Shown here one piece after another: positions 9,313 through 57,518 of a stretch of 64,000 nucleotides of DNA; the first letter of the stretch is position 1; each line of letters opens with the position of its first letter. The stretch lies in contig CP126204.1 in NCBI GenBank assembly GCA_030272155.1, forward strand, positions 2,533,501 to 2,597,500, in the 5' to 3' direction. The stretch is from Tetradesmus obliquus (Eukaryota > Chlorophyta > Chlorophyceae > Sphaeropleales > Scenedesmaceae). The translations under genes were made by a program, and so were the position numbers. The notes under the pieces were generated by a model that saw nothing but the letters and a program-made list of their open reading frames with translations, ran no database searches and was not told where the DNA came from.

Positions 9313-12300
9313 CTAGCTAGCCGCGGCCTCCACAGCCATCATTGCAGCCAGCAGCCGCACCACTGCCGCCTCATCACTCAGCTCCACAGCAGCCAGCTGC
9401 TGCACCAGCTGCCAGTACTGCTCATCACGCTGCTGCAGCTGCGGCAGCGCCAGCCGGCTGACTGGCTGGCCAGCCTGCTGCAGCGACAGCACGTCTGACG
9501 CGCGCACCAGCACTGCCCTGTCCACGCCACACATGCGCGCGCAGTTGAGCTGCGGCAGCAAGAGCAGCAGGTAGCAAGCACAGGCAGCACGTTGTATATT
9601 TGAAAGGGGTCGACTGCGCTCCTGTCATCATGCAGAGCTGGGTGCTGTAGTCAGCAGGTCTGTGCTAATCATCACCTGAACAGGAGCTGAGCCAGAAACC
9701 TCCAGCTGGACAAGCATTTCCAGCAAGCCAACCAACAGCAAGCAAGAGCCTGTCTTGTGCCCACCCACTGCTTCCAGGCCTCCAAGCGCAACACTGCAGC
9801 ACGCATATGCTGTGCCCTGCAGCATCAGACTTGTAAATTGCTTATGCTCACTCACCCCATAGCTAGCAGCCACCTTCCCTTGCACCAGCTTGTACAGAAA
9901 CACATGCTCCTCATCAATACCAGCAGCAGCAGCGTCCTTCCGCTCCTCCTTGTCCACACCCCTTACTGCTGCTGCTGCTGCCTCATCCTCCCCGCTGCTG
10001 CGCCCAGCCACCAGCACCTGCATCGTGCAGAGCTGCAGCTGCGGGTGTGGCGACAGCACCTCAGGCCCCAGAAGCTCCACAAAGTGAGTGCAGGCCAGCA
10101 GCATAGGTGGCACCGGCTGCGCTGTGTAGTGCTGCAGGATGGATGCCAGCAGGCCCACCCCGTCTGAGGTGAGGGTGCCTTTGCCAAACTCGTCTAGCAG
10201 CACCAGGGAACGGCTGGTGGCCCTGTGCAGGATGGTGGAGACCTGCAGCAGTGTCCAAAGCAGGCAGCAGAGCACTGTGATGGGGTGCTGCACGCTACCC
10301 AGACATCTCACGGTTGACCAGCGGACGGCGCATGCAGTCGTGGCAACATGTGGGGCAGCTGGGGTGGAATCGTTGGCAGCGACACAGCAGCGGTGCGGCA
10401 ACTTGCACTAATTGATCCTGCCCCGCCACGACAACACATACAGAGCAACTGTGCAAATGTGTATTGCAAAGAGGAGCAGTCTGTCGAAACAGCCTGCACT
10501 CATACACACGTGGCCCAGGCCTGCCATGAATATGCTGGCATCCTGCTGCACGTCCCCTGCACTGTCCCGCTGGATTTAGTAACACGATTTGCAGCAGCCT
10601 GTTGCTAGCTTGTCTGTTATATGTATGATTATGACGCGCCTGGCCCAGGTCTGCCATGAAGCTGTTGGCATGCTGTGCTATCACTCGCTACGCTGCTGGA
10701 TTACATGACAACATTGCCTTTGCACTGCTGGCGGCAGCCTGTTGCTGGCCTGTCATCTCATCTGCGTCCGGTCTGCCATGAAGCTGCTGGCGTGCTGCGC
10801 CGCTGCCCGCCATGCTGCTGGATAACACAGCCAACACAGCCATTGCACTGCTGGCGGTAGACTGTTGCTGGCCAGTCCTCTCACCTGGCCCAGGTCTGCC
10901 ATGAAGCTGCTGGCTGACTTACAAACATCAGTACTTGCTTTCTTTAGAGGCGTGTTACGCATATCAGCCGGCACATGCTCTTACCTGGCTCAGGTCTGCC
11001 ATGAAGCTGCTGGCATGCTGTGCCACCGCCTCCAAGCTGCAGCAGGGCAGCCGTGTGAGGATGCGGTCGCGCAGCCCGACTATGGCGCGCTGCGCTGGCA
11101 CGAAGCTGCCCACATGCGCCAGGTACACCAGCAGCGCCACCTGCATAGTGCAACACAATTTGAACAAAGCAGTGTGAGGATGCGGTTGCGCAGCCCCACT
11201 ATGGCGCACTGCGGTGGCACAAAGCTGCCCACATGCGCCAGGTACACCATCAGGGCGACCTGCAGTTGCATAATGACACCAGCATGCCAACAAACCCTCG
11301 TGTCAAACCAGCATGTCAGCTGTGGTCAAGTGTCACAAGGCGCTGTGCTTTCATACCTGCAAAGCGCGCGTGCACGGATGCAAAGCAGTCGAAGGGCAGA
11401 AGTTGGAACAGGAAGGCAGAATTTAGCAGAGGCCCTTTGCCAGTGATGCATTGACATGCAGCTGTGCTGGTTGCGGTTCCCGTTCAAAGTGGAAAGGTTG
11501 CAGTATAGCAGTACCGAGGCTCCCAAACAACCCACCTGCTTCATGTACACAGACTTGCCAGATGCATTAGGCCCTGTGATGAGTATCATGCGGGGCCCTG
11601 CTGCCTCACTGCCTTGCTGCTGCTGCTGCTCTGCTGCTGTTGTTTCTGCTGCCGGCATGCCTAAGCAAGTATCGTTTGGGATGAAGCGCCCGTCTGTCAG
11701 CAGCTCAGTCAGAGGGTGGCGCCCTGTTTGGTGGCAGCAGCAGCAGCAAGCATAGCAGGCGGCAGGCTTCAGCTGCTGCATCAAGCCGCTGACACCAGTA
11801 CTACCTGGCTGCTGGCGCTACTAGCATACATGCAGCACTGCACAACTGTTGACAGCACTGAGCAGACCGTCCACTTTCCGCACAGGACTTCAGCACACGC
11901 TTCTGTTTGCTGATGCCCCACCTCCTTCGATCAGCAGTACATCGTCAGTCGTCAGCGTGGGCCGCACGTATCCCAGTTCCCTCGCTGCTGCAGCGAAGCT
12001 GGCCAGGCAGTCCAGCTCAGCCACTGCTGCCGCTGCTGCTGCCAGGCAGGGACCAAACTCCAGCAGGCGCTTGATGAGCTCCGTGCAGATGCTGGTCTGC
12101 AAGCGTGCAGCAACGCAAAGAACCAATGCATCACGCTGAATGATATGCACAACAGGGTAGTGAGTGAGATCCACAGCAGTCCACCATCCTTGAACACTTG
12201 ACAGTGCTGAGCTCAGAGAGATCTGCATGTCAGGTGTATCTCACCAAAGGCGGCGTGCATTACTACTGCGTGTATTGATGTGTCTGCATACCCATTACTA

Positions 12301-15300
12301 CTGCGTGTATTGCTGTGTCTGCCTGAGCGCAAGACTTCAACATCGGACTCATCGGCCTCATCTGTCATGAACGTGGGGGCGCATAAACTCTCTGGTCAAG
12401 CGGCGAGGCAACTTGCACAGCAGGCAACCCACCTCCAGGTCCTGTATCTTGTGCTGCAGGTCCCCGTATTGGCTGTTGAGCTGCTGCGTGCACTCGCAGT
12501 AGTAGTAGGCGCAGCTGCCATCGCCTGCCTGCCCTCCCATGTCAGCACCTGCAGCAGCACAGCAGCAGCAGCAGCTATGTGGTCAATCCACAGGTGCCTC
12601 GGTGCTGCTTAGCGCGTCTCCACCAGATACAGCCAGTTGCTGGCTATGCTGCGTTTTTTGTCAAACACCATGATGCAGCTTGTCAGCTAGCTGCAGACCC
12701 TGATGCACAGCAACAGGCGAGTGCTACACAGCAGATGCCTAGCGCGCATGGCAACAGCAAGCGCGCCTGCCGCTGCTGCTGCTGCCGCCGGCCCCTCATC
12801 CCTCATGCATGCCAATCGGAACAGCCAGAACTGCGCGAGCAACCCTAGTAAACGCCCACCTGCCGCCGCTGCTGCTGCCCCCGGCCCCTCATCCCCCATG
12901 AAGGCTAGGTCATAGTCAGGCAGCAGCTCCAGCAGCTCCTCAGCCAGCCGGCCCCCAGTCACACACATGGTGAAGCCCACCTGCACGGCACAGGGCGTAC
13001 AGCTGTACAGCTGAATGCGTGAACACCCACCTACAAGTTGCACACTCATATGAGCAGCTCTAAATCCTCCTCAGCCAGCCGCCTGCCAGTCACACACATG
13101 GGTGCTTTGTTATATGCTTTGATTCCATCGAGACACACAGAATGCAGAGTTGCAGCTTTTGATGCTCGGCGGTGATTGTCTTGGTGTGCACAGAGTTGAA
13201 GGGCAGCAAACCCTTGGCGTTGAACAGGCGAATAAGTACGCAACACAGCAAAAGCTGCATGGCATGCAGCGCCCACCTGAGATGTACACGATTGAGCACA
13301 GCTGACTGCAGATGCTGTACAGCACTGTGAGGCCATACACGTCTCAGCCACCGCTAACGTGTCAGTAAATACAGCGCAAGGGTTCGCACCTGAGGAATGT
13401 ACACCATTGACCACAGCTGGCTGCTGTAGCGGCGCGCAACCTGCGCTGGCACGCGCTGCAGCTGAGACTCCACCACCTGCAGCAGCACAAGAGTAGCACT
13501 GTCCCGCGGCATTAACATGGACCCCCATGTAGCCATGCTGGCACAGCTGATGCACACATTGCGCACACATGAATTGCAGTGCAACGCACTGCCTACAGCG
13601 CCGAGTCAGCCATGTACAAGCGTGGCCGGCCCAGGCTAGATGCTGCGCAATGCAAATGCAGCATGCCACGACAACCCTCGCACCTGTGTCAGCAGCTCCG
13701 GCAGTGCTGCATGTGTGGCCTTCAGCTGGTCCAGTGCGTCACACACACCAGGCTGCACCAGGCAGCCATCAGCAGGCGGGCTGCTGAGGTCCAGCACATC
13801 ACCTATAAGTGTGCCACCTGTATGCAGCATAAAGCAAAGGTTTGCCAGTCAGCAGTCATTAAGCAAAGCGAGCAGACAGTTTGGTGGACAGCCAACGGCA
13901 GGCCGGCTGCTGAGGTCCAGCACGTCACCGATCAGCGTGCCACCTGTGCAGCATATAGAAGAAGCCCGCCAGTCGGCCCACCAGCCAGCAGGGTTACACA
14001 TATATGCAAACAGGCAAGGGAATGCATCACATGAACACCGCTAAGCAGCGTGACTTCTAGTTTTGGTATGCGCATGTCTTGTCGGCCACAAAGCGAGGAC
14101 TGGGGCATTCTCACACCCACACTCACATGCGGTGAGCTGGGGGCCAATTGCAGCCAGCAGCTTGAGGATGATGGCCAGCTTGTCCCAGGGGCTGGCTGCA
14201 GGCTGGTGGCGTGCCTGGAAGCTCGCGCCGCCACCAAACCCTGCAGCAGCGGCATCATCATCTTCTGGATCCAGCTGCAACCAAGGCTCCAGCCCATCCT
14301 GCAGCCACGAGGGGCAGGACGTGCACACAGTGTGCACGTTCAGTCTGGCAGGTGCAGGCAGCGGCTGCTGCTATGCTGATAGGCTGGGTGGCTGCTGCTG
14401 ACAACAGCTTTGGGTCTCTATTACCCATCACTAAGCACACACGCTAGCAGCTGCTAGCACAGGGCAAGTTGTACATCGTACATCCAGCTGTGGCAGAGCT
14501 GACGGGGTATGTACCACAACTCACCGCTGAGGCCCTGCCATTGCCTGCGCCACGTGGCCGCTGCGGCATGTAGCCGCCAGCTGCTGCCGTGCCCTCAGCG
14601 TCTCCTATCGCTGCTGCTTGTGCTGCAGCTGCGGGCGCCAGCGCTGCCACCATCTGCTGCAGCTGCATCAGCTGGTTGATGCTGTTCGCAAGCTGCTTGA
14701 AAGCTGTCAGCCTGGGCCGTGACTGGCTGAGGCGCAGCTGGGCCAGTAGGCGGGGCACATCCAGCACCTGTGACATGCACATGACAGTGTAACAGGAAAG
14801 CACGGGATGAGAAGTTTGGATGCTCCGAAAGTATTTGCTAGCCCTGCAGTCCTAGGGAACTACTGCTTGAAACAACAGAGAACGAGGGGCTGCTTCTGCA
14901 CGATACACGCGCAGCACCGTTTTGCTGCAGTTGATGAAGCTTAAAAACTGTATGTGCTATTGCAGCAACTGTGTTGTGGCATGCTTGCCAGCCCACCTGC
15001 TTCATCACTGCCCGCAGCGCATCGTTGGTGCTGGGGGCCTCCAGCAGCAGCTCAATCGTGTCGTGCCTGTCTGCCAGCACCTCCAGCTGCACCACCGGCC
15101 GCAGGAACCACTGCCGCAGCAGCCGCTTGCCCTGAAGGCAGGCAGCATCGGAACTCGGCAGTCACACACAGCAGCAGTATGCACGACAATATGAACAACC
15201 ACTGTCGCAGCAGCCGTTCGCCCTGCAGGGTGGCGCACGTGCAAAAACAGCTGACAAGACATCAGGGAGAAGGGCTTCAACTCTGCGGCAGCTGGTGAGA

Positions 15301-22947: not shown

Positions 22948-24681
22948 ATGGCAGATATATCATCTGCATCAAGGCAGTCTGAGCTCAGGGAGCCACTGAA
23001 GCCTGCTGCTGCATTTGCTGAAGGAGCAGCAGCATACCCAGCCGGTGCCCCTGCAGGTGCGGCAGAGCTCTGTCAGCACATGTAGTACACACAGCCAGCC
23101 GATCCTGCACGGCGGCGGCAAGTCCTGCATGTGATGCTGCAGCACACACCGCAGCTCCTGGACAACAAGTGCATTGCATCACGTATGGTCGCTATTGATG
23201 TGCAAACCTGCTGCAGTGTACATGAAACCCAAGTCAGAAGGCCGTTCAGTGATTGTCTCTGTGCATTGCACATTGCTGGTGGAGCCAGCATCGATGCTGT
23301 TGACCTCACCCAGGCAGCACTGCAGTACCACTAGCCAGCAGTAGCACCTGAACTTCAGACAAGGCTTGTCTATGTTGCATGGTGTGTGCTGTGTCCTGCA
23401 TTGAACCTTGCAGGCCCTGCTGACGTGGCACATGAGGATGACGGCCCAATGCGCTTCAGGGGCAACGGGGGCGAGAGCACCACACGGCCACGCAGGGGAG
23501 TAGCAGTGCCAGGTGCGCTTGCTGCTGCTGCTGCTGCTGCTGCTGTTACGGCAGCAGCTAAATGCACAGCTTCATGTGCCGCAGTGACTGCAGCTGCACA
23601 CGCATCTGCATTGGCGCGCACTATCTGCCCATAATTCCTTCACGCAAGAACCTCAAAGTGCGCTGACACTGCGGCGTGTCTGCTGCTGCTGCTGCTTCTC
23701 AGGGCTTGCTGCCAACTGCTGGGGTCAGGATGAGCTCAAGCAGCGCTACCCGCAGCTGACCGAGGATGTGGATGCTGACGTGTGCATTGTGGGCGGGGGC
23801 ATCAGCGGGCTTACCACTGCCTACCTGCTGGCCAAAGCAGGTGAGTGGGTCAGGCTGTGGGTTGGTGTTGGCATGCGCATATGCCTGAAGACGTGGATGC
23901 TGACGTGTGCATTGTGGACAGAGGATTAACGCGCTCACCACTGCTTACCTGCTGGCAAAAGCAGGTGGGGTTCTGGCTGTGTTGTTGTGTGGGCTCGGCA
24001 GTGTGCCTCTGTGCAGTTGTACTCGCTTGACAGTGCAATGCAGCTGCTGCACGCGTGTGACATGTAGCCCAGACGCACTGCGTTGGTGGCACCAATAATG
24101 ATAGCATTGCAAATACCCCCGCCGCTGCCCTGCAGGCAAGCGTGTGGTGGTTCTTGAGTCCCGTCTGATCGGCTCAGGCCAGACCGGCTGCAGCCTGGGC
24201 GACACGACTCCCTGGCACACCAGCTGCAACTGACCTGATGCTGCTGCTGCTGCTGCTACTGCTGCTACTGCTGTCCTCCTGCAGGCAAGCGTGTGGCAGT
24301 TCTTAAGTCTCGTCTTATTGGCTCCGGCCAGACTGGCCGCAGCCTGGGTGACATGACGCCCTGGCACACCAACTGCAAAGAAACACTCTATCTGCCCCCT
24401 GCTGCTGCTGCTGCTGCTGCTCTTGTGCTGCAGGCAAGCGTGTTGTGGTGCTGGAGTCCCGCTTGATTGGCTCCGGCCAGACAGGTCGCAGCCTGGGTGA
24501 CATGACGCCCTGGCAAAACAGCCAACACCATGCAGCCGACCCCGCTGCCTCTGCTGCTGCTGCTGCTGCTGCTGCCCTGCAGGCAAGCGTGTGGTGGTTC
24601 TTGAGTCCCGTCTGATCGGCTCCGGCCAGACCGGCCGCAGCCTGGGTGACATGACGCCCTGGCACACCAGCTGCAACTGAC

Positions 24682-24723
<42 letters not shown>

Positions 24724-24854
24724 GTCCTCCTGCAGGCAAGCGTGTCGTAGTTTTTGAGTCTCGTCTGATTGGCTCTGGCCAGACTGGCCGCAGCCTTGGC
24801 GACATGACGCCCTGGCACACCAGCTGCGACCGACGCTGCTGCTGCTGCGACTGA

Positions 24855-24905
<51 letters not shown>

Positions 24906-27045
24906 CCTCCTGCAGGCAAGCGTGTCGTACTTCTTGAGTCTCGTCTTATTGGCTCTGGCCAGACCGGGCGCTCCCTGGGTGACATGACGCCCTGGCACAC
25001 TGGGCTGTTCAGCAGCCTGGAGCGCTGGACCAACAGGGAGCAGCGCCAGCAGGTGTGATGATCAAAAAGATGATGAGCTCATTCAAAAATAAACAACATG
25101 CATGAACAGATGAATGTATTGCATGCACCTGTTGTGCCTCACGGGGCTGTTCAGCAGCCTGGAGCGCTGGACCAACAGGTAGCAGCGCCAGCAGGTGTGG
25201 GGCGTAGGACAGTTATCGTTGACTCTGTGTTTTACAGACTCCTAAACTGATTGTTTCCCATTTAAATTGGAAATCGTTTTGATGCGTTGCGGCACACTGA
25301 GCTGTTCAGCAGCCTGGAGCGCTGGACCAACAGGGAGCAGCGCCAGCAGGTGTGGGCCAGGATGACATGATATTAGTTTAATCATGGATGTACGATGATC
25401 AACTGTTCAATGTATCCACTTCACCTGTTGTGCCTCATGAAGCTCATGAAGCTGTTTGGCAGCCTGGGGCGCTGGACCAGCAGGGAGCAGCGTCAGCAGG
25501 TGATATGGCGGGGGCTTAGGATGTAATGAACCAACCATTCCCCTTGCGTGGTGCGGTTGGAAGACATTCCCTGTGGCTTTGACCGGGTTCTTGCAGCTGG
25601 TCATGCCTCTCTCTGCCTGCACATCGCCACCACTGATGTCACGCGCCACCAACGCCCTCCCAGCATACAGCACATGCTTGACATGAAACCTTGCTGCGTG
25701 CACTCCTCCTTTTTGCTGCGCCTGATCATCGCATCGCCTGCAGGTGGCTGTCAGCAATGCAGAGGCCATCAACTTTGTGGAGTCTGTCGTTGAGTCAGAA
25801 GGCATCTCCTGCGGCTTCTCCTGCTGCCCCAACTTCCTGCTGGCTGCGTCTGCAATGGCAGTGCCTGGCGACGACAGGGACCCGCCACTCCCCAACGCCT
25901 TTTCATGCACTCAACATCCCGCATCACTGACCAACATCGCATGTTCACTGCCTATCTTTTCTTTGCCTTGCTGCCTGGTGCAGGTGGCTGTCAGCAATGC
26001 AGAGGCCATCAACTTTGTGGAGTCTGTTGTCGAGTCAGAAGGCATATCCTGCGGCTTCTCCCGCTGCCCCAACTTCCTGCTGGCGGCGCCTGCCGTGGCG
26101 GTGCCTGGCGACAGCAGGGACCCCCGGAGTGTGAGCAGCAGGAGCGGCGACGCCAGCGTGCGCGAGGGAGGTGCGTGTTTGCTCGGCTGGCGTGTTTGTT
26201 TGTTGCAGAGGCTAGCTGCTTTGTAATTTGACCAGTGGACGTAGACGTATAGGAGGGCAACAGACGGGTAGTGCTTGTCGAGGCTACTGGCATTTGATAT
26301 GGTTTGGGCTGTTGCAAGGACTGCACGTGCCAGTGGGCGGTGCCTGGGGACTTTTGCAGCGTGAGCACCAGGAGCGGTGATGCCAGTGTGCGCAAGCTTA
26401 AGGGAGGTGTGTGTGCCTGGCCGGCTGCCCTGGCAGATACTGCTTCATGCAGATCTGCAGTGAGCCAGCGGTTCACGTCTTTGCAGTCTTGCAAGCTTTG
26501 CCAGGAATGTTGAAAACCTGCTCGGAACAACGCCGGCACTGCGAACACGCCTTGTGACAATCGTGCAGTCATGTTTTTAACTCGACTTGCACCTGCCACT
26601 GCTGCTGCTGCGGCTCCCACTGCTGCTGCTGCTGCTGCTGCCGCAGAGCGTGTGCTGATGCAGGAGTATGAGGCCTCCAAGGTGGCAGGCCTGGACGTGA
26701 ACATGGTGCGCAATAACAACTGAGCAGTTGCATTGGCATTGATGTTGTTGAACGTGCACTTGCTACATCAAAGTGGCCGGCCTGGACGTGAACATGGTGC
26801 GCTGCAAGCTTGGTTTCACATGCAGGGTGCATCGCGGGAATGATGTAACTGCAGTGCTAGCCCAGCAAGGTGACAGCTGTAGCTGCATGCTCTTTTGCAA
26901 GTGGACGACATGGATTGAGAACAAGTCGGCAGAGGAGCTCCTGGCAGCTCCTGGCAGCTCCTGGCAGTAACGGCTGCCTGAAAAAGCAAACAAGCTGTGT
27001 GAACTCTGCAGCAGGGAGGCATGTTGTCAAGATTCTTTTCACACA

Positions 27046-27076
<31 letters not shown>

Positions 27077-27550
27077 TCAGGTTGAGCTGGACCGCAAGGC
27101 TGCTGGTGGTGGCAGGGCGCTGCAGCTGCCTGATGGCGCGGTGATGAACCCGCTGCTGTATGTGCAGGGCCTGGCTGCAGCTATTACAGGTGGGACAATA
27201 AACTGTATGAGCTTTGGTGGGCTACACATAACCTCAAGCATGATATTTGGGACATCCTACTGCTGCACATGCGGGGCCTGGAGGCAGCCCTCACAAGTAG
27301 GTTGAGCACACAGATGTCCAAGGTGTTTCTGAGGTTGACAAGCAGCTATCAGATAGTGTGCAAGAGCTGCAGGTAGTGAGCACCAGGTAGGTGGCTGCGC
27401 TACAGCTTGCTGACAGACACTACATGCATCTGCTGGTTCCTGCAGGCAACTATGGAGACATGATGTACAAGACCACCCGAATGCACAAGGCCAAGCCTTC
27501 TGCCACACCGTGACATCATCTCTGCAGCTGATTTGCATACAAAACGTATA

Positions 27551-27589
<39 letters not shown>

Positions 27590-28155
27590 ATGCAGGCAGG
27601 CAAGTACGGTGGCAGGATCTACGAGACCACGCGCATGCGCAAGGCCAACTCCTCTGCCACACCGTGACCACATCTCTGCAGCTGGCTTGAAAACATTCCA
27701 CACATGCTGCTGCTGCTGCTGCTGCATGCAGGCAAGTATGGAGGGAGGATCTACGAGACTACCCGCATGCGCAAGGCCAACCCCTCAGCACGCACACTTA
27801 CTACCATGGAGGGCCACACAGTGACAACACGCCAGGGCTATGTGCTGGCCACTGCCTCTCCAGTGACCAGCAGCATCCTGGACTCCGCACTGCATGTACT
27901 GGCGCTGCACGGCAAGCAGCATGTGCGCCGCAGGTGAGCACATTGCACTGGCTGTTTCACTTGCTTCGCCTGATTAACATTTCTAAGGGGTCGCTGTCAA
28001 GACCAGTGACAGGCTTTGGGTTGAGGAGTGCCACCAGGTTCAAGTGGTCGTTTTGTTTGTTAGCGTGGACGTGCAGTTCATTGGGCAGGGCTGCGTGCTG
28101 GCCAGCGCCTCTGCAGTGACCATCAGCATACTTGATTCTGCGCTACACGTGCAAG

Positions 28156-28198
<43 letters not shown>

Positions 28199-28280
28199 GC
28201 AGGTACGTGGTTGCCCTGAAGATCCTTAAGAACAGCAGCTACCAGCCGGGTGTGTACTACGGCATATCTCTGAGCCCCAG

Positions 28281-28317
<37 letters not shown>

Positions 28318-30279
28318 GCAGGTATGTGGTTGCCCTGAAGATCCAGCGGCTACCAGCCGGGTGTGTACTACGGCACACATCAGGATGCCAAGTGCTGCTG
28401 CTGCTGCTGCTGCTGCTGCTGCAGGTATGTGGTTGCTCTGAAGGTCCCCAAGAACAGCGGCTACCAGCCAGGTGTTTACTACGATGCAGGCGAGCCGCAG
28501 CACACTGCACTAATCACACCTGGCAAGGCCAGCACCAAGATGCGGGCTGGCTACCACGATCTGCTGCTGGTGTCAGGCGAGGCACACGACCAGGTGTGGT
28601 GTGTTGCAAACAATGCAGTTTTCAGAGCATTGAAGTTCAACAAGGAGCACGTGCATGTCAGTTGAAGCAGCATCTGATGACAGAAATTGAAGTGTGCATG
28701 AATTCAGCTACCCAGGCTAGCCTGTTGTGTTATTTTGATCATTTAAGTTCAATGCCAGCAGCACCATTCCCGTCAGGTGTCCTGCTGCTGCCACTGCTGC
28801 TCCTGCTGTAGCTGGTCTTCAAGGCTTTCTGCAGTGCTAATGATCTCGTTACTGCCGATGCTGCTGCTGCTGCTGCTGCTGCTGCCCTGGCTGCAGGGCA
28901 AGCGCCCCTCTCAGTACGGCCAGCCGCTGCAGCAGCTGGAGTCATGGGCCCGCACCCGCTGGCCTGCAGCAGGGGAGCGGCTGTACGCCTGGAGCTACAA
29001 CGTGAGTGCTGAGAGGGCAGCAGCAGCAGCAACAGCAGCAGCAGCGTTGCTGGGGTGGCCTGGTTTGCAGCATTGTATGGATTTGGCATGTATGAAGCGG
29101 CAAGTACAGCATGATGAACATAGGCCTTGAATGTTGCGTGCTCTGTACTTTGACCAGGTACAACGATCTGCCTGACATTTCAAACTTGTAGACGACATAC
29201 ACTGAGTATGGAGAGATGGGTGCATGCCCTTGCGGTGCCTGTGCAATGCAAGGACATGCAGCCATCTCACTGTATTTAGTTGCCTTGACGTAGTGCGTTG
29301 CATATTCTGATCACAGCAGTGGCAGCTCTCACATGCAGCTCTTGCAGCACATAGCACTGTTGGCTCTAGAGCTTATCTGGTCAGGAGTATTTTCGAACTC
29401 TGAGATGTTTTTTGCAGCTGCAGTTCTCTTGTCCCAACCTGCAGTCATCACACACAGCAAACAGCAACTGATGCATGTTGTTGCCTTGCGCAGTTTGTGA
29501 GCTAGGTTGGGGCTCCCCTTTGACCTTGTTGCCGTTGCTTGTTGTCATCATTGCATCTTTACTTGTGAGCTGGGTTGCACTTGTTCTTGCAGAAATGGGC
29601 TTGCCAGCAGGGGTGCCTCCTTCAAGAGCAGCTGCAACCCAGCTCATAATGCAGCTGCTGCAAGCAGTAGCCAATGCATAAATGTGCATGGCCAATGGCC
29701 CCGTCAAGAAAAGTGGTTGATTGTTTGATCAAAACTGACACCCAGGTATTTTTATTCCCTCCTTGCCCGCCATGCGTATTGTGACGTAAGCTTGGTGCAA
29801 TGCTTGAAGAGCTGTCTGTGCCTCAAACGGTTTCTGCAGTGAGATGTTTGCTGTATAGATTTGAGCTGTGGTTGCTGCCGCTGCCGTTGCTTGCAGTATT
29901 TCCAAACAGCTGAGGACCTGGGCCTGTATGGCAGCGACCCAACCATCACCACCACAAAGGACGTGTACGTGGCAACAGGTGAGGCGACATCAACCATGAT
30001 TGCTGCAGCTGCAAGTTCAGCTGATGCTTGGTGCAGCCAGATACGCTGCAACGTCAGCTGACGGGGAGCCAGAAGCTGTGTCCGTAGACAGTTGCCAAAT
30101 ACCAGCCTGATGGCTGCTGTTTCATGGTGTGCCACAGCCGCAGCAGGCACACCAGCAGCATTGTGTGTGAAATTGATGTTTGGTCGGTTTGACAATGCAG
30201 ATGCAGCAGTTGCACGGCAGTGCTGCCATTGCTGCAACTCCAGCTCTGCCTGCTGATCTGCTGATGTGTTGCGGCTACT

Positions 30280-30318
<39 letters not shown>

Positions 30319-37689: not shown

Positions 37690-37720
<31 letters not shown>

Positions 37721-46683: not shown

Positions 46684-48758
46684 ATGCCACTGCTTCTGCA
46701 GCATGGAGAAGGGCCAGGAGACCCAGCAGCATTGGCGCGGGACCTGCAGCAGAAGCTTGCAGAGCTGCAGGTGTGCGAAGGACAGCACTCTACACAGCAG
46801 TTGTTGCGGTTGGCTGTCGCTGGGGCTGCCCTGCATGCAATCGTTGTGTTGTGAGAGGGACCTGCCTTGCACTCCAATATGTGTGCAATTCAAGTTGATG
46901 GCTGTGAGGGTGGAAGGCATGGCTGACCTGGTGTCTGTGCCTGCAGAGAATCAGCAGAGAGCTAGACAGCTCGTGGCGCATGGCGCTGGTGCGGCAGCAG
47001 ACAGCAAAGCACGACGTATGGAAGAGGCAAGTGCAGAACCGGCTCTGCAACAGCAGTGTCAGCGGCAGTTACAGCAGCCTGCACATTGCTACAGGGCGCT
47101 GGCATTGTCAGGCAGTCTCTGTTCGCCGTCATGGCTGCGTTAGCATTTGCAGCTACAGCCTGGCAGGTGCTGTGCCAGCACTTGCGCGCAGATGATGAGC
47201 TAGTTCCACGAACCACAAGCTGTTTTCGGCATCAGTAGTTGCGGCTGTGTGGACGTGGCGCTTGCTGATCGGCCAAGGCATTGCCTGTGCAGCAACAGCA
47301 GCTCCAGCAGCAGCAAGTGCATGTCAAGTGCAGGGACTTGCAGCAAGCAGGGCTGCCATTACACACGATATTGTGTCTCAGTGCAGCTTGTACCCCTGCC
47401 TGATGCCTTGCAGGAAAGTGGAGCAAGTATCGGATGAAGCAGACTTCTTGCGGCAGTCGCTGGACCGGTTTGGCGGGCGGTGCGTGCGCAGCAGACAGCA
47501 CAGCACGCCCACTTTGCAGCACCACGGCAGCAGCAGCGGTGCAAGCACACAACAGCAAAGCAGCATAGCAGACGTATAGGCCAGCGCTGTTGTATTCCTG
47601 CTCATCAGCAATGTTTGTGAGGGTTGTATCAACACACATTGTGCAAAGCAACACACCGCCGCAGCAGCGTCAGTCCAGGTAGAAGGATTGCTGGGATCCT
47701 GCGTGTCCCGTGCCGCTGCAAAAGGCGCTGCTCATGCACATGCTGTGTTGTATGCTCTCCTGCAGGCAAGTCGCGCGGCAGCGGGAGGCAGCAGACAGAG
47801 AGGAGCTGCTCGCGCGAGCAGAGATGGGCCGGCAGATCAAGGATGCAATGGATGAAGAGGCAGCAGTGATGGGCCATGTCACACGCTCGCGGCGCATGAT
47901 GTCTGAGATGTTTGAGCAGGGTGGCAGCATCCTCGCAAACATGTCGCAGAACCGGGAACGCATCAAGGTAGGTTTTGAAGGCAGCCAGGCGGCACGAATG
48001 CATAGCTGTTGCTGGGCGTTGGCAGCAGCGGCCACAGCAGCAGCGGGTGGTTGCAGTCTTGCTGAAACAGCTGTGCAGTGCTGGAAGCAGCTGCAAAACC
48101 GCAAGTACAGCACTAATGAATATCCGAGCAGCTCTGCATGTGGACGATGGCCTTCATCGCCTGTGTTTGGCTGCTTATTACCATGGTCTTGCTGGGATGG
48201 ATGCAGCGGGCACAGAAGAAGATGCCTGACGTGCTGAACAGAGTAGGCACGTGCAAACTCTAGTCAGTTGTTGAATCTCATTGCCTGCGTTGCCTGCTTG
48301 ATTCTATGAGTGCAGCGGGCGCAGAAGAAGATGCTGGACGTGCTCAACAGTGTGGGCATGGGCGAGAGCGTGCTGCGCATGATTGAGCGGCGGCACAAGG
48401 CAGACGTGTACCTGGCACTAGGCGGCATGGTGAGTGCACAAGCGCGCCAGCAGTATGGTATACCATACAAAAGGATAAAGTGCTTGGTGATGATCCTGCA
48501 GATTAGGCGTGGTGTGCACTTAAGCAGGTGTCGCGTGTCTCTGCTGCATCAGGCATGTGCAGTTTGATCGCCAGCAGAAGCTTTTGCAATGGTCGGCCAC
48601 AAATCGCGGCCATCTCAACGGGTAACGCACGCACGGCAGCAGCTGCTGATGCCAGGCTCTACTGTAGTGCATTCACAAAATTAGGACTCATGCATGAACT
48701 ACAGTGCACACTGCCATCTAAGGTGGCCATGAATAAAACATTTCACTGACTGGTTGTG

Positions 48759-48805
<47 letters not shown>

Positions 48806-49701: not shown

Positions 49702-51412
49702 ATGAGGAAACTGAGCTTAGCAGGTGCGGTCACTCGGCATCAGCCAGCATCTTCCCGGCTGTGCCTTACGTATGCGTGCATACTAGCTATCTTCGTGTTC
49801 CAAACAAACATACTTTAAGGTCACCCATGCATGTGCTTTCTTGTGTCTCCTGCAACTTTGCTACTGCTGAAGTCGCTGCTGCTGCTACTGCTGCTGCTGC
49901 TACTGCTGCTGCTGCCATGCAGTGCTAAAAGCCCATAGGCTTAGGAACACAGCTGCCTTTGGATCCAAGCAGAACGTCTACCTGAAATTAGTGGCCGGAA
50001 CTGCTGTGAAGACATCTGTTGTGGTTCCAGGTGCGCTGTCAGCAGCAGCAGCGCCGCGCTGCAATGGCATTGCAACTCACTCCAGCCTGACCTACATTGA
50101 AGTATGCATGCGCCTCAGCCCCGCAACAGTTGTGGCATTTGGGCATGGTTTGTAATGGCTGGCTCAAGCTTCAGCTTCCACTAGTAACACTATGCATGCA
50201 GCCAGCACTTGGGCCAGTGACTCTGCAACCACATGGCATGGTGATGATGCATGCATATGATACGCTTACAAAGTAATGCGGTAATGCTGCACCATGTCAC
50301 ATATATAGATGTGTGGCTGTCCCTGTTGGTGATGGTGTGTCTGCAGATGCCGGCACAGATTGTGCTCTTGGCGAGATCTTCAGCCTTGACCTGCCACCAG
50401 GCGTTGACTCAGTCAACATTGAGGTCATCTCAAAACACAACCTGACAGGTGAGGCAGTTGACACGAGATGCAGGCAGCTGCGCTGTTTGGGTTTGAAGCA
50501 CCCTGCCATGTGCATTGACTGCTGAGCGCAACATGTGTACCTGTTGATACGCTGCGCGGCATGGTGGCCTAGATAAACACAGAAGCTCTGCATTGCACAC
50601 AATGCATGCAACTCTGTGCTTGCCGCCACCAGACTGCAGTGCCCTGCATGCACTCATCGTGTGTTACCAGCCTCGGATTGAGTATCGATTTCCTCCTGTT
50701 ATATGCTTCCCTCCAGATAGCTGCTGCATGCACATCGCATGCACTGATGTGCCATAATGGCAGCCTGACATCATCTAGTACACATGTGCTGCATTCGCAG
50801 GTGATGAGCTCATAGGCACAGCCACGCTGTCGCTGGAGCAAATCCAGGAGTCAAACGGGGATGTCATCCGTGCACCTGTCATGTCCAAGAAAGGCATGGC
50901 AGGGGAGCTGGAAGTCACCGCAAGTGTGGCAGATGCAGCAGCAGCAGTGTCTGCATCACAAGCAGCTACAAAGGTGAGCATAGTTGATGTTGATGTTGAT
51001 ATTGATTATTATTAATTCTACTATCAGGTGTGCAAAGCTGAGCTGGAGGTCACTGCCAGTGTAGCAGATGGAGCAGCAGCAGTGTCTGCACAGCAAGCAG
51101 CAGCAAAGGTGGGCATACTTGATCTATTGGGTTCATATGTACGCGGTCATGATGCAGGGAACTGTTTCAAAAAGACCACGGTCCAGTGAATGCTCAACAG
51201 TGACGTTGCGCACTGACAGCAACAAGCAGCTAGTGACAGCAAGATAAATTGAATGGTACACTCAACAGCTTGCACATCGTTGCAACACCAAGTCCAACAA
51301 AAATTGTGTGTTTGTCCTGCTGTGTCTGCTGCTGCATGCAGTCTCCCTACCCTGCGGCAGCTCCTGCAGGGCCGTACCCCAACAGCAGCAGCCCTTACGG
51401 CAGCCCCTACCC

Positions 51413-51451
<39 letters not shown>

Positions 51452-51577
51452 AGGCATGGGTCCACCTGGCCCTGCTACCTACCCTCCAATCGGCGCCATG
51501 CAGCCAATGCAGCAGCAGCAGCAGCCGTACCCAGCAGCAGCAGCAGGATACGCGCAGCCTGCCGCTGGTCCCTACCC

Positions 51578-51615
<38 letters not shown>

Positions 51616-51735
51616 GGCGGCAGCCGATGGGTCCTTACCCCAGCCCATACCCCCCACAGCAGCAGCAGCAGCCGGGGTATGGCCAGCCTCCGGGTGGCTA
51701 CCCTGGGGGTTACCCCCCTGCTGCTCCTTACCCAC

Positions 51736-51771
<36 letters not shown>

Positions 51772-52280
51772 CTTATAACATTCCACCTGGCTACCCGCAG
51801 CCAGCAGGGACGCAGCTGCCACTGGTACAGCAGCAGCAGCAGCAGCAGCCACAGCAGCAGATGGCACCTAGCACTGGTGCCGGCCGGGGCAGCGGTATGA
51901 TGGGGACTGCACTGGCGGCAGGGGCCGGTGCCTTGGGTGGTGCTGTGATTGGCGGTGCCGTTTCAAATGCCATGTTTGGCGGTCATCACGGCGGCTGGGG
52001 CGGCGGCGGCGGCTGGGGCGGGGGCGGCGGTTACGGCGGCGGCTACGGCGGCGGCTACGGCGGCGGCGACACCGTCTTTGTTGAAAATAACACATATGTG
52101 ACAAATAACACGACGCAGGATTACAGCTCGGTGGCGGATGTGAATGGTGGCGTGGGCGGGGATTGGGTGGCTATGGACAATGCAGGCGGTGGCGGTGACT
52201 GGGTTGATATGGATAATGGTGGCGGAGGGGACTTTGGGGGTGGAGGCTTTGATGACTTTGGGGGTGGGGGAGACTGGTAG
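49702..52280 (+). CDS. C2-domain protein with Pro/Gln- and Gly-rich tail (SRC2-like)
   Basis: Exons in phase: 49702-49723, 49923-50030, 50347-50448, 50801-50973, 51342-52280; an extra in-phase duplicate exon at 51028-51108 may also be used. The first three and a half exons form a C2 domain: MRKLSLAVLKAHRL, YLKLVAGTAVKTSVVVPD, GEIFSLDLPPGVDSVNIEVI, then DELIGTATLSLEQI. C2 domains bind membranes, often with Ca2+; the acidic loop residues are not all evident. The last exon is low-complexity: SPYPAAAP, poly-Gln blocks, YPP-type repeats, then a small-residue segment ALAAGAGALGGAVIGGAV and Gly/Trp/Tyr-rich and acidic GGGGDWVDMDNGGGGD repeats. Plant SRC2/A3-type stress proteins have the same order. 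The 22-base first exon is inferred from phase and the C2 first strand. Confidence 0.8.
51028..51108 (+). repeat. In-phase duplicate exon (donor-side echo) in the C2-domain gene
   Basis: Codes AELEVTASVADGAAAVSAQQ then AAAK, a copy of the exon 4 tail GELEVTASVADAAAAVSASQ, AATK. It has an acceptor (TATCAG), a donor (GTGGGC), 81 bases and phase 0 on both sides, so it could be spliced in without breaking the frame. Most other echoes cannot. Confidence 0.85.
51415..51450 (+). repeat. (CAG)n coding poly-Gln
   Basis: Twelve CAG units coding Gln in the C2-domain gene; a second run occurs at 51579-51613. Confidence 0.9.
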
Positions 52281-53137
52281 CCGGGATAGGGCCTGCCCGA
52301 GCCTGAACTTGGAGCATAAGTGTACAGTCTTGCCTTTGTGCGGTATTGCGCTGTGCTGTACAGTATTCACCGGCTAGTGTCTTCGCCGCCAGGCAGGACG
52401 TTTGCTTTATGAAACTAGTGTCTGATTTTGACTAATACTTTGGGAGCTTGACACATATACATGGCAGGTGTACAGCATAATGTGAAGCCGTCACTTGGGC
52501 AAAGCCATTGTTAGTGGTGCCCCGTCAAGGGCGGATGCCAGACGCAGCACCTCCCATGCATGGATGGTGTGATCATTGATTGGTAGCTGTGAGAGCTGTC
52601 ATTATGAATACAAGAATTAACCAATGAACTCCGTCTTGTTATCACCATTTCTGACCGGGTTTGATGCATCAGCACCTGATGCCCTGCCAGGGGCAGATCT
52701 GAGGTGCAGCCAGCAGCCATGGTGGCCTTTCGGGGGACCACTTCTTGCCATGTGAGTGCGCATTATGTTGCATGATGCTTATGCTTGTAATGAATGCAAT
52801 TCGGCAACTTTCTTTATATGGCAGACCGCTGTGGTTTGGGGCTTGGAGCGTACAGGGTGTACGTACTGTGCAACTTCTAGAAGAGTTGCAGGATACGTGT
52901 GTATATATTGCCTGCTGGCTGCTGTAAGGTTACTGCTTGCAGTCGCACATGAGATCATCATGACAACAGTGTTGCAACGATGCAATAGTACTGGCCGTTG
53001 AGTTAGCAGCAACCGCCAAGCTCTCCAGCAGTTGAAGTACGTCCCTCCCTGGCAACAAAAACAGCTCTCGGGCAACGCACCTACTTGCAGTTTACAGCTG
53101 ACTCAGCCCAATTCACAACCAACCCAACCATGTCCCG
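52281..53137. other. Convergent 3' region
   Basis: No gene supported. TGTAA at about 52787 and 52924 could end the C2-domain transcript. The minus-strand NFKBIL1-like echoes begin at 53138. Confidence 0.5.
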
Positions 53138-53500
53138 CTATGCCGTCTTCAGTGCCGTCAGCTGCTGCGCCACCGCCTGCACCCCCGCCAGCACCACCTC
53201 CCTCTCCCCTGGCACTAACCGCCTACCAAACCTCGCCCCAAACTTTTTGGGGTGCCAGTGCATGAGCTCCTTACGCAGCGCCAGCCTCATTGCATCAGGC
53301 CCTGAGGCACCTGGTGCCGGCATCTGTCTATATCTGGCTGCCAAATAGTTTTGCCACTTGCAAGGACACATTTTGCAACGCGCCATGTTTCAGCTATGCC
53401 GTCTTCAGTGCCGTCAGCTGCTGTGCTTATCTGCTTATCTGGATGCCAGCGCATGAGCTCCTTACGCAGGGCCAGCCTCATTGCATCAGGCCCCGAGGCA
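53138..53500 (-). repeat. Two extra copies of the NFKBIL1-like last exon
   Basis: Downstream of the true terminal exon (53966-53580) there are two tail copies. The near one (about 53500-53390) has lost its centre after ELMRWHPDK but keeps the start GASGPDAMRLALRKELMRW and part of the end. The far one (about 53312-53138) is complete and in frame to a TAG, but WHPDKFG reads WHPKKFG. Both lie beyond the TGTAA signal (53578-53574) that follows the true stop. Confidence 0.9.
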
Positions 53501-53579
53501 CCTGGTGGCGGCTGCCATGTCTAAGCCAGGCTAAATCCACTCTCGCAATACACACATTTTGCAACGCGCCATGTTACAG

Positions 53580-53828
53580 CTATGCCGTCTTCAGTGCCGT
53601 CAGCTGCTGCGCCACTGCCTGCACCCCCGCCAACACTGCCTCCTTCTCCCCTGGCACTAACCGCCCACCAAACCTTGCCCCAAACTTATCTGGATGCCAG
53701 CGCATGAGCTCCTTACGCAGCGCCAGCCGCATTGCATCAGGTCCTGATGCACCCCCAAACAGCAGGCTGCGCAGCTGCTGCGGATCCAACTGGATCTCCC
53801 TATGAGCTATTTGGAGCTGAGGCCCCCG

Positions 53829-53862
<34 letters not shown>

Positions 53863-54939
53863 GGCGGCCAGGGGATGTCTGCATAGCCTATGGGCTTGTG
53901 CTTGGGCCATGCGTCGAGTGCTGCCCACTTGGCTTCGTATGCTGCGCGTCTGTTGGGTGCAGCGGCCTGGCAGCAGCAGGGCGCATGTGGCACAGGGCAA
54001 GCAGAGCAGGTGCAGGGTAGCAAAAGCAGGATGTAAGAGCTTGCAGGAGACACACAGCAGGAGGGACAAGCATGGCAGAAGGCAGCAGCACAAAAAGGCC
54101 AGCAGAGTCGATGAGGATGCATAACTAAGGAGGCAATACGTGTCTCAAACCAGATGGCCTGAGCGCGATTAATGTCGTGTTACTAGAGCCGTTGCTTGGA
54201 GAGCGCAGCTGTGACAGCAGTCATGACATGACAGCAATCCTCGCATGACAGCAGACATCGCATGATCATGCTGTCTGAACCTCCGCAGCTCACCTGCTCA
54301 ATCTGCTGCATCATCGCTGCTCTCCAGTTGGAGTCCTTGGATTGCTCCTCCATAGACGCCAAACCTTGAACCCAAACCCCAAACCACAAACCCTGGGCTG
54401 AACCTATACCAACCCACCTGCTCGATCTGCTGCATCATCGCAGCTCTCCAGTTACTGTCCTTGGCTTGCTCCTCCCTCAAAATCCTGGCAGACTCTGCTG
54501 CTGCTACTTCAGCCTTGCGCTGGCGCTCTTTTGCTGCTGCATCCCGCTCTTCAGCGCCCCTGCCAAAGCCAGCGAAGCCTGACCGGCCGCCTAAGCGTGC
54601 GGCTGCAGCAGCGGCAGCAGCAGCAGCCACCTTACGGCCGTGGTCCTGCAAACAGCAGCAGCAGCGCAGGTACAGCAGGAAAGGTGGAAAACAGTGCCTG
54701 ACTAGCTTCTCATAGTGTGCTTGTGCTGACAGAGCATCACACATGCAAACTACGTGTGACACACACCCTGCAGCTGATAAACAGGACTCAGTAATGCCTT
54801 GCACAGCAGCCCATGCGGTTGGTGTGGAAGCACCTCCATTGCTAGCAGAAGAGGAATCGAGCAGCTTTGTAGCTGCCTGCAAGCCCCACCTGCATGTCTT
54901 GCCACAGCCTGTCCGCCCATGCTTCATCATCATCCTCGT

Positions 54940-54977
<38 letters not shown>

Positions 54978-57518
54978 CCACCCCCACTAGCTGGCTGGCC
55001 ATACTGCGCAGCAGCAGCAGCAGCAGCAGCAGTGCCACCCCACCCTGCACCAGACAGACTGCAGCAGTAGCAGCAGTGGCAGCAGAAGCGCAATGAGTGT
55101 GCGGCTATGCCGTGTATGCACGTGCATTGTCACTTCACAACGGTTGTTGCGATTGTGTGATTCGACTGACGCCACCAGCAGTGATTTTAAGCAGGAGCTG
55201 TGCGATGGTGCTGAGCTTGCAGGAGCGTTCACCCTTGTGTCCAATACACATTGCTGAGCCAGCACCTGGTCGCCTAAGCCCTGAAGAGCATCTATCACAA
55301 AGAAATCTTGCCGAACATAACATCAAAATGACGCACCCGCCCCAGCCTCCTTCATCATCACTCATCTCCTCCGCAAGCCGAGCCCTCCAACCATCGTCAT
55401 CATCTCCAGCAGCACCACCACCAGCAGCAGCAGCACCAGCAGCACCGGCTTCAGCCAGTCCTCTGCTGCCAGTACCCAGGCTGCTGTCGCTGCCGCTGCC
55501 GCTGTGTGCGGCAGCGTGTGGCAGGGGAGAGCCTTCCTGCTGGTTGTGCCGCTGCATGATCTGCTGAATGGTGAGGCCTGCATGGTTGGTGGCAGACAGG
55601 TCAACTGGCTGTTCTGCCCCCTGCGGCGCAGCAGCAGCAGCAGCGAGTGTAAGCAGCTGTTCCTTTTAGTTTGATGTACTTGCAAATATCACAGCACCAA
55701 GTGCGAGGGGTCTCGCAATGCCCGTGGTCTGCAGAACACAGGAGACAAAATATATTCACCACATGATTAACAGACTCAGCAGCAGCAGCAGCAGCAACAG
55801 CAGCGGATTACTGCAGCGCACCTGTTTGAGCTCTGACAGTGCCAGCCAGTGGCCATGCATTGCAGCCAGGTGCCCGGGTGTGTTGCTGGCAGAGAAAACA
55901 TCAAGCACGTGATAAACGTAAACATAACACAAACATACTCAGCACCAGCAGCAGCAGCAGGTTCCTGCAGCGCACCTGTATGAGCTCTGACAGTGCCAGC
56001 CAGTGGCCATGCATTGCAGCCAGGTGCCGGGGTGTGTTGCCAGCAGAGAAAACATTAAGCACGAGATAACGTAAAGTTGATGCAACCACACTCAGCACCA
56101 GCACCACCAGCAGCAGCAGCAGCAGGTCATGCAGCGCACCTGTATGAGCTCTGACAGTGCCAGCCAGTGGCCATGCATGGCAGCCAGGTGCCCGGGTGTG
56201 TTGCCAGCAGAGAAAACATCAAGCACGAGATAACGTAAAGTTGATGCAACCACACTCAGCACCAGCACCACCACCAGCAGCAGCAGCAGCAGGTCATGCA
56301 GCTCACCTGTATGAGCTCTGACAGTGCCAGCCAGTGGCCATGCATGGCAGCCAGGTGCCCGGGTGTGTTGCCAGCAGCATCCTGGGCAGATGGATCGGCA
56401 TGGCGCCTGCAGGACAACCAGCGGCGCATGCACGGCATGAGTGAGTTAGTATCGCGATTGGCTGGAACGATGCAAATCACGACATTGGCATGTAATCCTT
56501 TTACCATCTCCGGCTAAAGCCCAGCCATAAGAACAGGAAACAAAATCCTGCTGCTGGCGGCCATCACTGGCACTCCTGTGAGGTGCACCTTCCACCCAGG
56601 GTACCTGCTGTATACAAGATACTTGGCCACCTGGTTAAAACAAGAAGACTGTTTGAAGGCAGCAGAAGCCAGGCGTTGACGCAGTCCTGATGAATCACTG
56701 CATTGCTTGATCAACCACTTTTGGGCCCAGGCTGGGCGTCACAGCCCAGCAGAAGAGTGACCTGAGCAGCACGTCTTGAGGAAGCGGACAGCGCCCGATT
56801 GGCAGCAACCTGAATCATAATATGGGCGAAACGGCCAAAATACACCGCGACGCGGGCTTTGGCCTGCATCTATCACGCGCGTTCGAACGACACTGACTTG
56901 CCATCGCTTGCCATATCGACTGCGTGTTGTCTTCAGACCACGTCGATGCACGAGACAGCAAGTAAAGTTACGGTGATTGTTTGCCTGGTGTCGTGGGCTT
57001 GCCTTTGCTCAGGTGGGCGGGGCAGGGGATCGCTGCAGCACCGTAGCATCGAGACAAGTCCACCGCCTGATCCAGAACGATTCTTAACATAAACAATTTC
57101 CCAACATACAGTAATATAGTATGTTAATGCTTTTATAACACCACGTCAGCATGCATGTCGAACCAAAATTGGTCTGGTTCGTACATGAGCTCAGCCCGGT
57201 GCTAAGTGCAACACAGTACTGTTTCCTCCTCTCTGCAGCCATGCACCAAGCATTATACCTCGAACATAGAAAACCGCGAGCTGACGACTTCAAGCCTATG
57301 TGCTATGTGCTGGCACTCAACTTGACAGCTGCCGTGTACTGCCTGCCACTTGTGTCTGCCTCCCCACAGACTGTGCTGCAGATACTCATCTGGGATCCAG
57401 AAGCCTGCTGCAGGCACACCAGGCAACTGTGCTGCAGCTGTCTACCCACGATGTGCTGCAAACAGCAGGAACTGTGGCCACGCAAGGACCCCAGGCTGTG
57501 CAGGCAGAAGAACTGCCT

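Follow-up and report, generated by a model that had tools for sequence, protein, structure and literature searches.

Polar copies of exon edges in introns of the green alga Tetradesmus obliquus, possibly derived from misaligned recombination between diverged partners

The closest published ideas to the structures described here are intron gain by tandem genomic duplication and internal gene duplication. The former was reportedly treated by Hellsten in 2011, and Gao and Lynch are said to have described in 2009 ubiquitous internal gene duplication, with partial duplications within genes. The subject of this study is a 64,000-nucleotide stretch of Tetradesmus obliquus (the window; C14:2533501-2597500, contig CP126204.1), in which partial copies of exons lie in the introns next to them. 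In intron gain by tandem genomic duplication, an exon segment bearing AGGT becomes both ends of a new intron (PMC3443670). In a published table, T. obliquus has a G+C content of 57% and introns averaging 462 bp, while the means for the four further algae listed are 230-302 bp (PMC5966456). The copying of exon edges in this genome is real and reaches beyond the window. The copies are direct, closely spaced and polar; their exon parts appear to evolve like coding sequence, and in most pairs the intron sides are not alike.

The material is one genome of 104.66 Mb in 17 contigs, from which about 314 kb, overlaps included, was examined; C-numbers denote contigs and L-numbers sampled loci. Besides the window (G+C about 57%, zero N), it included 30 loci around DEAD-box exons, chosen blind to the copies, four aminoacyl-tRNA synthetase genes and 12 arbitrary stretches of 10 kb. 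Since several DEAD-box loci overlap one another, array and pair counts are partly non-independent. Three satellite-like arbitrary stretches (L033, L037 and L041) were set aside, leaving nine; these three, together with L029 and L031, which carry in-frame coding repeats, are dropped where stated.

Self-comparison of the window yielded 37 pairs less than 3 kb apart, namely 35 direct pairs and 2 self-palindromes with no other inverted pair, and 2 further direct pairs. Such pairs are not confined to, but occur in, all five genes in whose introns an earlier note, made from the sequence of the window, had placed partial exon copies: MSH5 (minus strand), FAD-Rieske (plus), a membrin-like SNARE (plus), a C2-domain gene (plus) and an ankyrin/NFKBIL1-like gene (minus). 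Pfam matched MutS_V, DAO, Rieske and V-SNARE_C above cut-off in the window proteins, with a C2 match and an ankyrin match, the latter in the window's own reading of the NFKBIL1-like gene, slightly below it. The names membrin and NFKBIL1 come from the earlier sequence-only reading, and the first gene, beyond its MutS domain V, we take to be MSH5. Head copies carry an acceptor and an exon start, tail copies an exon end and a donor; these types were assigned by script, with at least three rows judged mis-typed by eye. The copies in the window are the following.

10639..10914, minus strand: MSH5-like tail copies (exon end and donor), in the intron downstream of exon 10985-11140
near 10530, minus strand: further weak MSH5-like copy, visible only in translation
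10985..11140, minus strand: intact MSH5-like exon (..QHASSFMADLSQ/V), first intron base 10984
11168..11264, minus strand: MSH5-like head copy (acceptor and exon start), upstream of exon 10985-11140; 91% identity, period 119
13889..13977, minus strand: MSH5-like head copy, upstream of the exon starting at 13817; period 126
23876..23994, plus strand: FAD-Rieske tail copy, downstream of the exon with donor 23841; copy donor 23965
24129..24820, plus strand: five FAD-Rieske head copies, acceptor CAG and 84 bp coding for close variants of KRVVVLESRLIGSGQTGRSLGDMTPWH
24136, 24285, 24434, 24583 and 24736, plus strand: exon starts of these five head copies; the intact exon starts at 24916
25140..25502, plus strand: FAD-Rieske tail copies, downstream of the exon starting at 24916; intact donor 25053, copy donors 25195 and 25350, third copy ending at 25502
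25739..25883, plus strand: FAD-Rieske head copy of exon 25979-26123; 92% identity over 145 bp, flanks unlike
26769..26802, plus strand: short FAD-Rieske tail copy of 26678-26711
27442..27657, plus strand: FAD-Rieske head copies, upstream of the exon starting at 27732 (..AGKYGGRIYETTRMRKANPS..)
28163..28372, plus strand: FAD-Rieske head copies (CTG tract, CAG, YVVALK..), upstream of the intact exon starting near 28422; the pair 28203/28322 is a tail by script and a head by eye
30501..30572, plus strand: FAD-Rieske copy of exon end 30369-30440; period 132, head by script, tail from the translation by eye
31045..31132, plus strand: FAD-Rieske tail copy of 30839-30926; period 206
48202..48249, plus strand: membrin-like SNARE head copy, upstream of exon 48311-48358
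51040..51123, plus strand: C2-domain gene tail copy, downstream of 50905-50988; donors 50974 and 51109
53128..53753, minus strand: NFKBIL1-like copies of the last coding exon (DAMRLALRKELMRWHPDK..), one including the stop codon; breaks the polarity rule described below
54291..54351, minus strand: NFKBIL1-like tail copy of 54415-54475; first intron bases 54417 (intact) and 54293 (copy)
55771..56262, minus strand: three NFKBIL1-like tail copies (NTPGHLAAMHGHWLALSELIQ or close variants, and donor) in contiguous units of 154-167 bp, downstream of the ankyrin-like exon 56263-56377

Long CTG/CAG tracts occur at 24129-24904, 28156-28483, 34943-35083 and elsewhere, some of them within repeat units and immediately ahead of acceptors, and are a possible stimulus to duplication.

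Arrays of this kind are widespread in the sampled loci. At least one is present at 23 of the 30 DEAD-box loci and none at the other 7, and seven of the nine non-satellite arbitrary stretches hold arrays of 60-300 bp spacing. Arrays with this spacing cover 6222 of the window's 64000 bases and 9789 of 90000 sampled bases, about one in ten, their assignment to exon edges having been made for part of the arrays. The four aminoacyl-tRNA synthetase genes carry 13 arrays (L044), 7 (L045) and none (L046 and L047). The tandem spacing of 100-180 bp proposed earlier is borne out, with 15 of 18 window arrays spaced 91-154 bp and the smallest spacing per array falling within 90-160 bp in 78 of 97 arrays over all sets (L033 omitted). 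Among pairs no more than 400 bp apart, 221 are direct and 1 is inverted (44 partly overlapping sequences), the close and direct arrangement expected of tandem duplication. Exactly two copies make up 76 of 88 chains.

For polarity, the four flanks of each non-contiguous pair were given coding scores from a codon table trained on 49 exons. A pair abides by the rule if its best coding flank lies left of the first copy (a tail downstream of its exon) or right of the second (a head upstream); loci of known strand were scored on that strand, and in the window and sampled stretches the strand was chosen by score. At known-strand loci the rule is obeyed in 70 of 79 pairs by best flank and in 46 of 46 by clear margin (30 tails, 16 heads); in the window the figures are 13 of 17 and, for strong calls, 6 of 7. 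Pooling all sets gives 100 of 116 by best flank and 59 of 61 by clear margin, so that heads and tails are far from equally frequent on both sides of their exons and the rule of the earlier note, heads upstream and tails downstream, holds. The two clear exceptions are at 53.1-53.4 kb of the window (the last exon of the NFKBIL1-like gene) and in L042. A check by eye that relied on hidden Markov model matches only, with three ambiguous pairs (C15:1330053, C6:3346986 and C5:4052966) set aside, found 4 overlapping-model copies in PF00133 (1 tail and 3 heads, one of the latter a nearly whole match) and 3 head copies in PF00225 (C2:7430899-7431399), all rule-abiding; for PF00122 it found no clear overlapping-position copy among 43 matches. 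The message is unaffected only when the copy lies beyond the intact border, on its outer side, and geometry would in this way force the observed polarity through survival. As geometry alone predicts the rule for any border-spanning duplicate, polarity singles out no mechanism.

We framed 72 exon-copy pairs from the window and genome, of which 8 have clearly homologous intron sides (class A), 17 are intermediate and 47 have intron sides that are not alike (class B), with exon parts about 92% identical in the last group. The earlier claim that copies include intron sequence therefore stands for 8 pairs and fails for 47, the remainder being intermediate; contiguous arrays with shared intron parts are found in the NFKBIL1-like gene, L012 and L021. 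In many pairs an exon edge of 40-145 bp is 92-98% identical and the likeness breaks off no more than about 26 bp from the splice junction. Shared stretches extend over a median of 49 bp on the exon side and 6 bp on the intron side (103 copies), and the flanks beyond them are mostly at chance level in 79 non-contiguous pairs. Since the exon part is shared without the intron part in 47 of 72 pairs, most copies are not plain tandem duplicates. In near class-B pairs the spacer averages 78 bp and correlates inversely with the exon part (r = -0.62, n=26), with a mean period of 129 bp (standard deviation 16.5), although restriction to pairs of at most 160 bp itself strengthens both the inverse relation and the tight period. 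By eye, spacers look distantly related in some three-copy arrays.

A useful comparison is offered by two paralogous stretches 7.6 kb apart in L040, whose exons are 89.4% (397 bp) and 91.7% (181 bp) identical without gaps. Their alignments end, by eye, about at the splice sites, and their introns do not align at an E value of 1e-5. Class-B pairs look like two such compared genes cut down to one exon edge, both L040 genes being assumed to work. The spacers form no repeated family: for 35 of 36, every match lay in the spacer itself, its own array or an overlapping locus (314 kb; first six matches each), and one that spans an exon copy matched a DEAD motif in L010 and L028 within the same limit. 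Two units searched genome-wide were found only at their own locus.

Several origins were considered and rejected on these grounds. An introner or transposon with a long target duplication is at odds with spacers that belong to no repeated family, and the spacer of a head copy bears a working acceptor, unlike a random insert. A paralogue as source does not agree with the restriction of the two searched units to their own locus. Differential decay of class A into class B was rejected because some breaks are sharp, 6-26 bp into the intron, with an exon part 92-100% identical; in favor of such decay are a weak leftover likeness between some spacers by eye and a rank test that leans slightly towards it (mean rank 0.45 as against 0.525 if unrelated, 74 non-significant pairs).

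Divergence within the exon parts can be read codon by codon. For this, 72 of 103 copies were kept, those dropped having an unclear frame, an exon part shorter than 25 bp or a place in L029/L031; the first, diverged L042 copy was left out of the five-array and divergence-bin analyses and the first L040 copy out of the bins. Differences at codon positions 1, 2 and 3 number 59, 53 and 190, and single-change codons comprise 170 synonymous and 78 non-synonymous changes, with 2 stops and 25 codons multiply changed. The ratio of non-synonymous to synonymous divergence (pN/pS) is 0.19 over all 72 pairs, with a class-B 95% interval of 0.14-0.26. Copies simulated on the same sequences as dead since birth gave means of 0.38-0.46 and a range of 0.31-0.57, so that the neutral evolution expected of an unused copy is not what the pairs display, copy-copy pairs at 3-6% excepted. 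With rising divergence, exon-copy pN/pS is 0.03 (<3%; 14 pairs with 12 synonymous and 1 non-synonymous change), 0.33 (3-6%), 0.16, 0.23 and 0.20. For copy-copy pairs, which are non-independent within arrays, the values are 0.32 (2 pairs), 0.99 (3-6%, 11 pairs), 0.29, 0.23 and 0.26, and the pairs at 3-6% look neutral, behaving as dead copies should.

Among-copy pN/pS in five arrays is 0.15, 0.18, 0.21, 0.40 and 0.45 at synonymous divergence (pS) of 0.24-0.38, and six arrays pooled show 448.5 synonymous changes where 245.5 of 929 would be expected from the same substitution types (pairwise and non-independent counts). The NFKBIL1-like array by itself looks neutral (4 synonymous, 9 non-synonymous). 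Exons and copies hardly differ in third-position G+C (0.813 and 0.819), which 76 changes raise and 69 lower. Judged by these substitution patterns, the exon part of the copies appears to evolve like coding sequence and not like decaying junk. Six exon heads in L035 (C9:2000130-2000912) have AGC, AGT or TCA serine codons at one site across copies, the peptide there being unchanged; the exon, to which Pfam gave no match, is presumably ABC-transporter-like.

Splice sites of the copies likewise look intact. Head copies retain AG in 35 of 46 cases in the junction table, and the acceptor AG is kept, by eye, in 29 of 30 copies of five arrays, the anchors for finding units including CAG. The pyrimidine fraction is 0.61 at acceptors of AG-keeping copies and 0.62 at real acceptors (selected for it), compared with 0.46 at other YAG sites. 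In 35 class-B tail pairs, where GT was required by selection, the copy has G at +5 in 32, and of the class-B copy donors with differing letters at +3 to +5, 15 of 18 still fit the consensus. Such differences are those of two working donors, not those of a dead donor in decay. The spare splice sites that introns were claimed to gain are present and look intact. Use of a copy's splice site would keep the frame and meet no stop in only 6 of 64 pairs, which makes present protein-level use of the copies unlikely; periods are divisible by three in 20 of 64, and no GT donor stands right behind the FAD-Rieske head copies. The acceptor, donor and frame of an alternative exon are not combined in most units.

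Exceptions may be found in L042 (C11:2007516-2008175), L040 (C8:2002497-2003260) and L043 (C12:2002937-2003637), where units resemble complete small exons by eye. They measure about 60-68 bp and have an acceptor and a donor-like GTGCGC, GTGAAG or GTGGGC, with introns of 50-70 bp between them. Possibly these are real repeated or alternative exons.

The ages of the copies bear on how they are supplied. Class-B pairs have a mean pS of 0.219 and 13% of the 47 lack any synonymous difference, compared with a pS of 0.07-0.13 and 30-52% without synonymous difference when continuous births seen up to 17% divergence, an assumed detection limit, are simulated. The common-age dispersion of 1.03-1.33 is not decisive against exponential ages once detection limits are modelled, but the shortage of near-zero pairs remains. 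The earlier idea that short tandem duplications constantly arise fits poorly with this scarcity of near-identical class-B pairs. Of the accompanying model, in which border-spanning duplicates survive, the local direct copies and fitting polarity are retained, and the shared intron part and junk-like exon part are not. Growth of introns by this process, in units of roughly 120 bp, agrees with the data, and the earlier interpretation as a whole is partly supported.

The copies seem, then, not to be plain decaying tandem duplicates, each having gone out of use late in its history. With less than even confidence, we prefer to regard them as direct local duplications across exon borders that came from working edges through misaligned recombination between diverged partners. 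Recombination or break repair would begin in the conserved exon, continue into an intron in which the partners differ (the partner being a different allele or lineage, or in some cases the same one) and close out of register by about 100-160 bp. In order, the product would contain an exon edge, some 75 bp from the end of one intron, the exon edge a second time and then the other intron. Each event would join the upstream part of one partner to the downstream part of another with an overlap at the exon edge, giving both observed forms: contiguous arrays where the partner is the same, copies with unlike intron sides where it is another. Later unequal exchange within arrays could multiply the units. 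This scheme starts from the spacing, direction, polarity, unlike intron sides, synonymous bias and intact splice consensus seen in the pairs, and adds a repair step and a partner whose identity we infer.

A number of observations weigh against misaligned recombination. The partners would have to be about 0.2 apart at synonymous sites, above ordinary alleles, and a second lineage is not seen in this genome. Arrays of 5-7 copies hold several deep lineages, with pS up to 0.58, exceeding what two partners would yield, and some three-copy arrays show, by eye, three different intron contexts. Class-A pN/pS is 0.30 with an interval of 0.13-0.53, about 0.4 being expected if dead, so that the models are not separated there and the class-A and class-B intervals overlap. 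Copy-copy bins other than 3-6% stand at 0.23-0.32 and not at 1, and exon-copy pairs at 3-6% stand at 0.33. Frames were taken from the codon score trained on 49 exons rather than from a gene annotation, and mis-typing affects at least three rows of the junction table (28203/28322, 30379/30511 and L044 3211/3339).

The main technical rival is an assembly artefact, which we consider unlikely: collapsed diverged haplotypes would leave the same scar, as a mosaic join at a shared exon doubles the overlap and leaves the intron overhang of one haplotype in between. It predicts the polarity, exon-only overlap, unlike but authentic intron contexts and synonymous differences, and it fits the dominance of two-copy chains (76 of 88) and the existence of copy-free genes (L046, L047 and 7 of 30 DEAD-box loci). 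It sits poorly with zero N in the window and 12 sampled stretches, contigs of 4.5-11.1 Mb (those sized), arrays with 5-7 copies and several lineages, the three contexts seen by eye in some arrays, and three probed stretches for which no second locus was found. Slightly less credible still is the constant arising of plain short tandem duplications across borders, the outer copy decaying as neutral intron. Overhang breaks are known to yield small tandem duplications (PMC8355091), and the contiguous arrays of the NFKBIL1-like gene, L012 and L021, like the 8 clearly homologous pairs of 72, are of the expected form. Against plain duplication stand a pN/pS of 0.19 where 0.31-0.57 is expected, unlike intron sides in 47 of 72 pairs, too few young pairs and a splice consensus kept despite changed letters.

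Splice-site retention might instead reflect direct selection, the copied edges now serving as alternative or unproductive splice sites. The AG kept in 29 of 30 array copies by eye and in 35 of 46 table rows, the pyrimidine tracts (0.61 against 0.46 elsewhere) and the copy donors that fit the consensus all speak for present use, which is nevertheless distinctly improbable: few frames are open (6 of 64) and few periods divisible by three (20 of 64), the FAD-Rieske head copies are not directly followed by a GT donor, the copy-copy pairs at 3-6% appear neutral, and selection for unproductive splicing would leave codons unprotected. Constraint on codons and splice sites of untranslated copies, together with free drift of the spacers, would be explained if conversion or unit loss often made the copy the working edge, selection reaching the copy second-hand. 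We regard such exchange as very doubtful because, by reasoning, a rate high enough for selection would erase synonymous differences unless diversity were extreme, and pS is about 0.2 to 0.38. A broader proposition, that exon edges are held as interchangeable multi-copy cassettes whose working copy changes by recombination over evolutionary time, is doubtful but conceivable; if true, introns would be stores of spare functional exon borders, and selection would reach DNA that a given cell splices out.

Some sampled loci carry repeats of other kinds. L041 (C10:3000001-3010000) contains a head-to-tail 3682-bp unit at 100% identity, and L033 (C2:4500001-4510000; G+C 48%) and L037 (C4:5505899-5510000) contain satellite-like arrays, built of units about 312-336 bp long, together with inverted pieces. 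In L017/L018 (C2:8540325-8547084), DEAD-box pieces 3.6 kb apart are 100% identical over 2082 bp, either a very recent tandem duplicate or an assembly duplication. L029/L031 (C14:2870743-2875614) is a DEAD-box gene with coding-looking 168-bp repeats in an 837-residue open frame.

It is surprising that the copies resemble working exon edges more than decaying leftovers. If they are real, one process with a step of about 120 bp feeds genome-wide intron growth and stocks introns with intact splice sites and exon edges; if diverged lineages gave rise to them by misaligned exchange, that exchange can be read from the copies. Should they be an artefact, each exon border in the gene models of such assemblies calls for a check. 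Real or not, the copies lead any annotation or family search that counts them as exons into error here.

Polar exon-edge arrays had no published description among the literature matches listed, with subscription literature mostly outside reach. Internal gene duplication, as reportedly described by Gao and Lynch, resembles the present case in its partial copies within genes; here most loci carry arrays (23 of 30 DEAD-box loci), mostly with one spacing and with coding-like divergence. Tandemly duplicated mutually exclusive exons are likewise serial coding copies with splice sites, as the exon-like units of L040, L042 and L043 appear to be by eye, whereas the FAD-Rieske and L035 arrays are exon heads only, without a consistent donor behind. 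Small tandem duplications at overhang breaks are direct, short and derived from the broken site itself, as here, but they are tandem copies of one stretch, whereas 47 of our 72 pairs do not share the intron part (PMC8355091). No AGGT that could supply the ends of a new intron was seen when the FAD-Rieske and L035 units were read by eye. Intron gain by tandem genomic duplication shares with these arrays a direct local duplication within the gene that alters exon-intron structure and adds a second set of splice sites (PMC3443670); there a new intron results, whereas in the present arrays the exon is left whole and a copy of its edge is added to an intron already in place.

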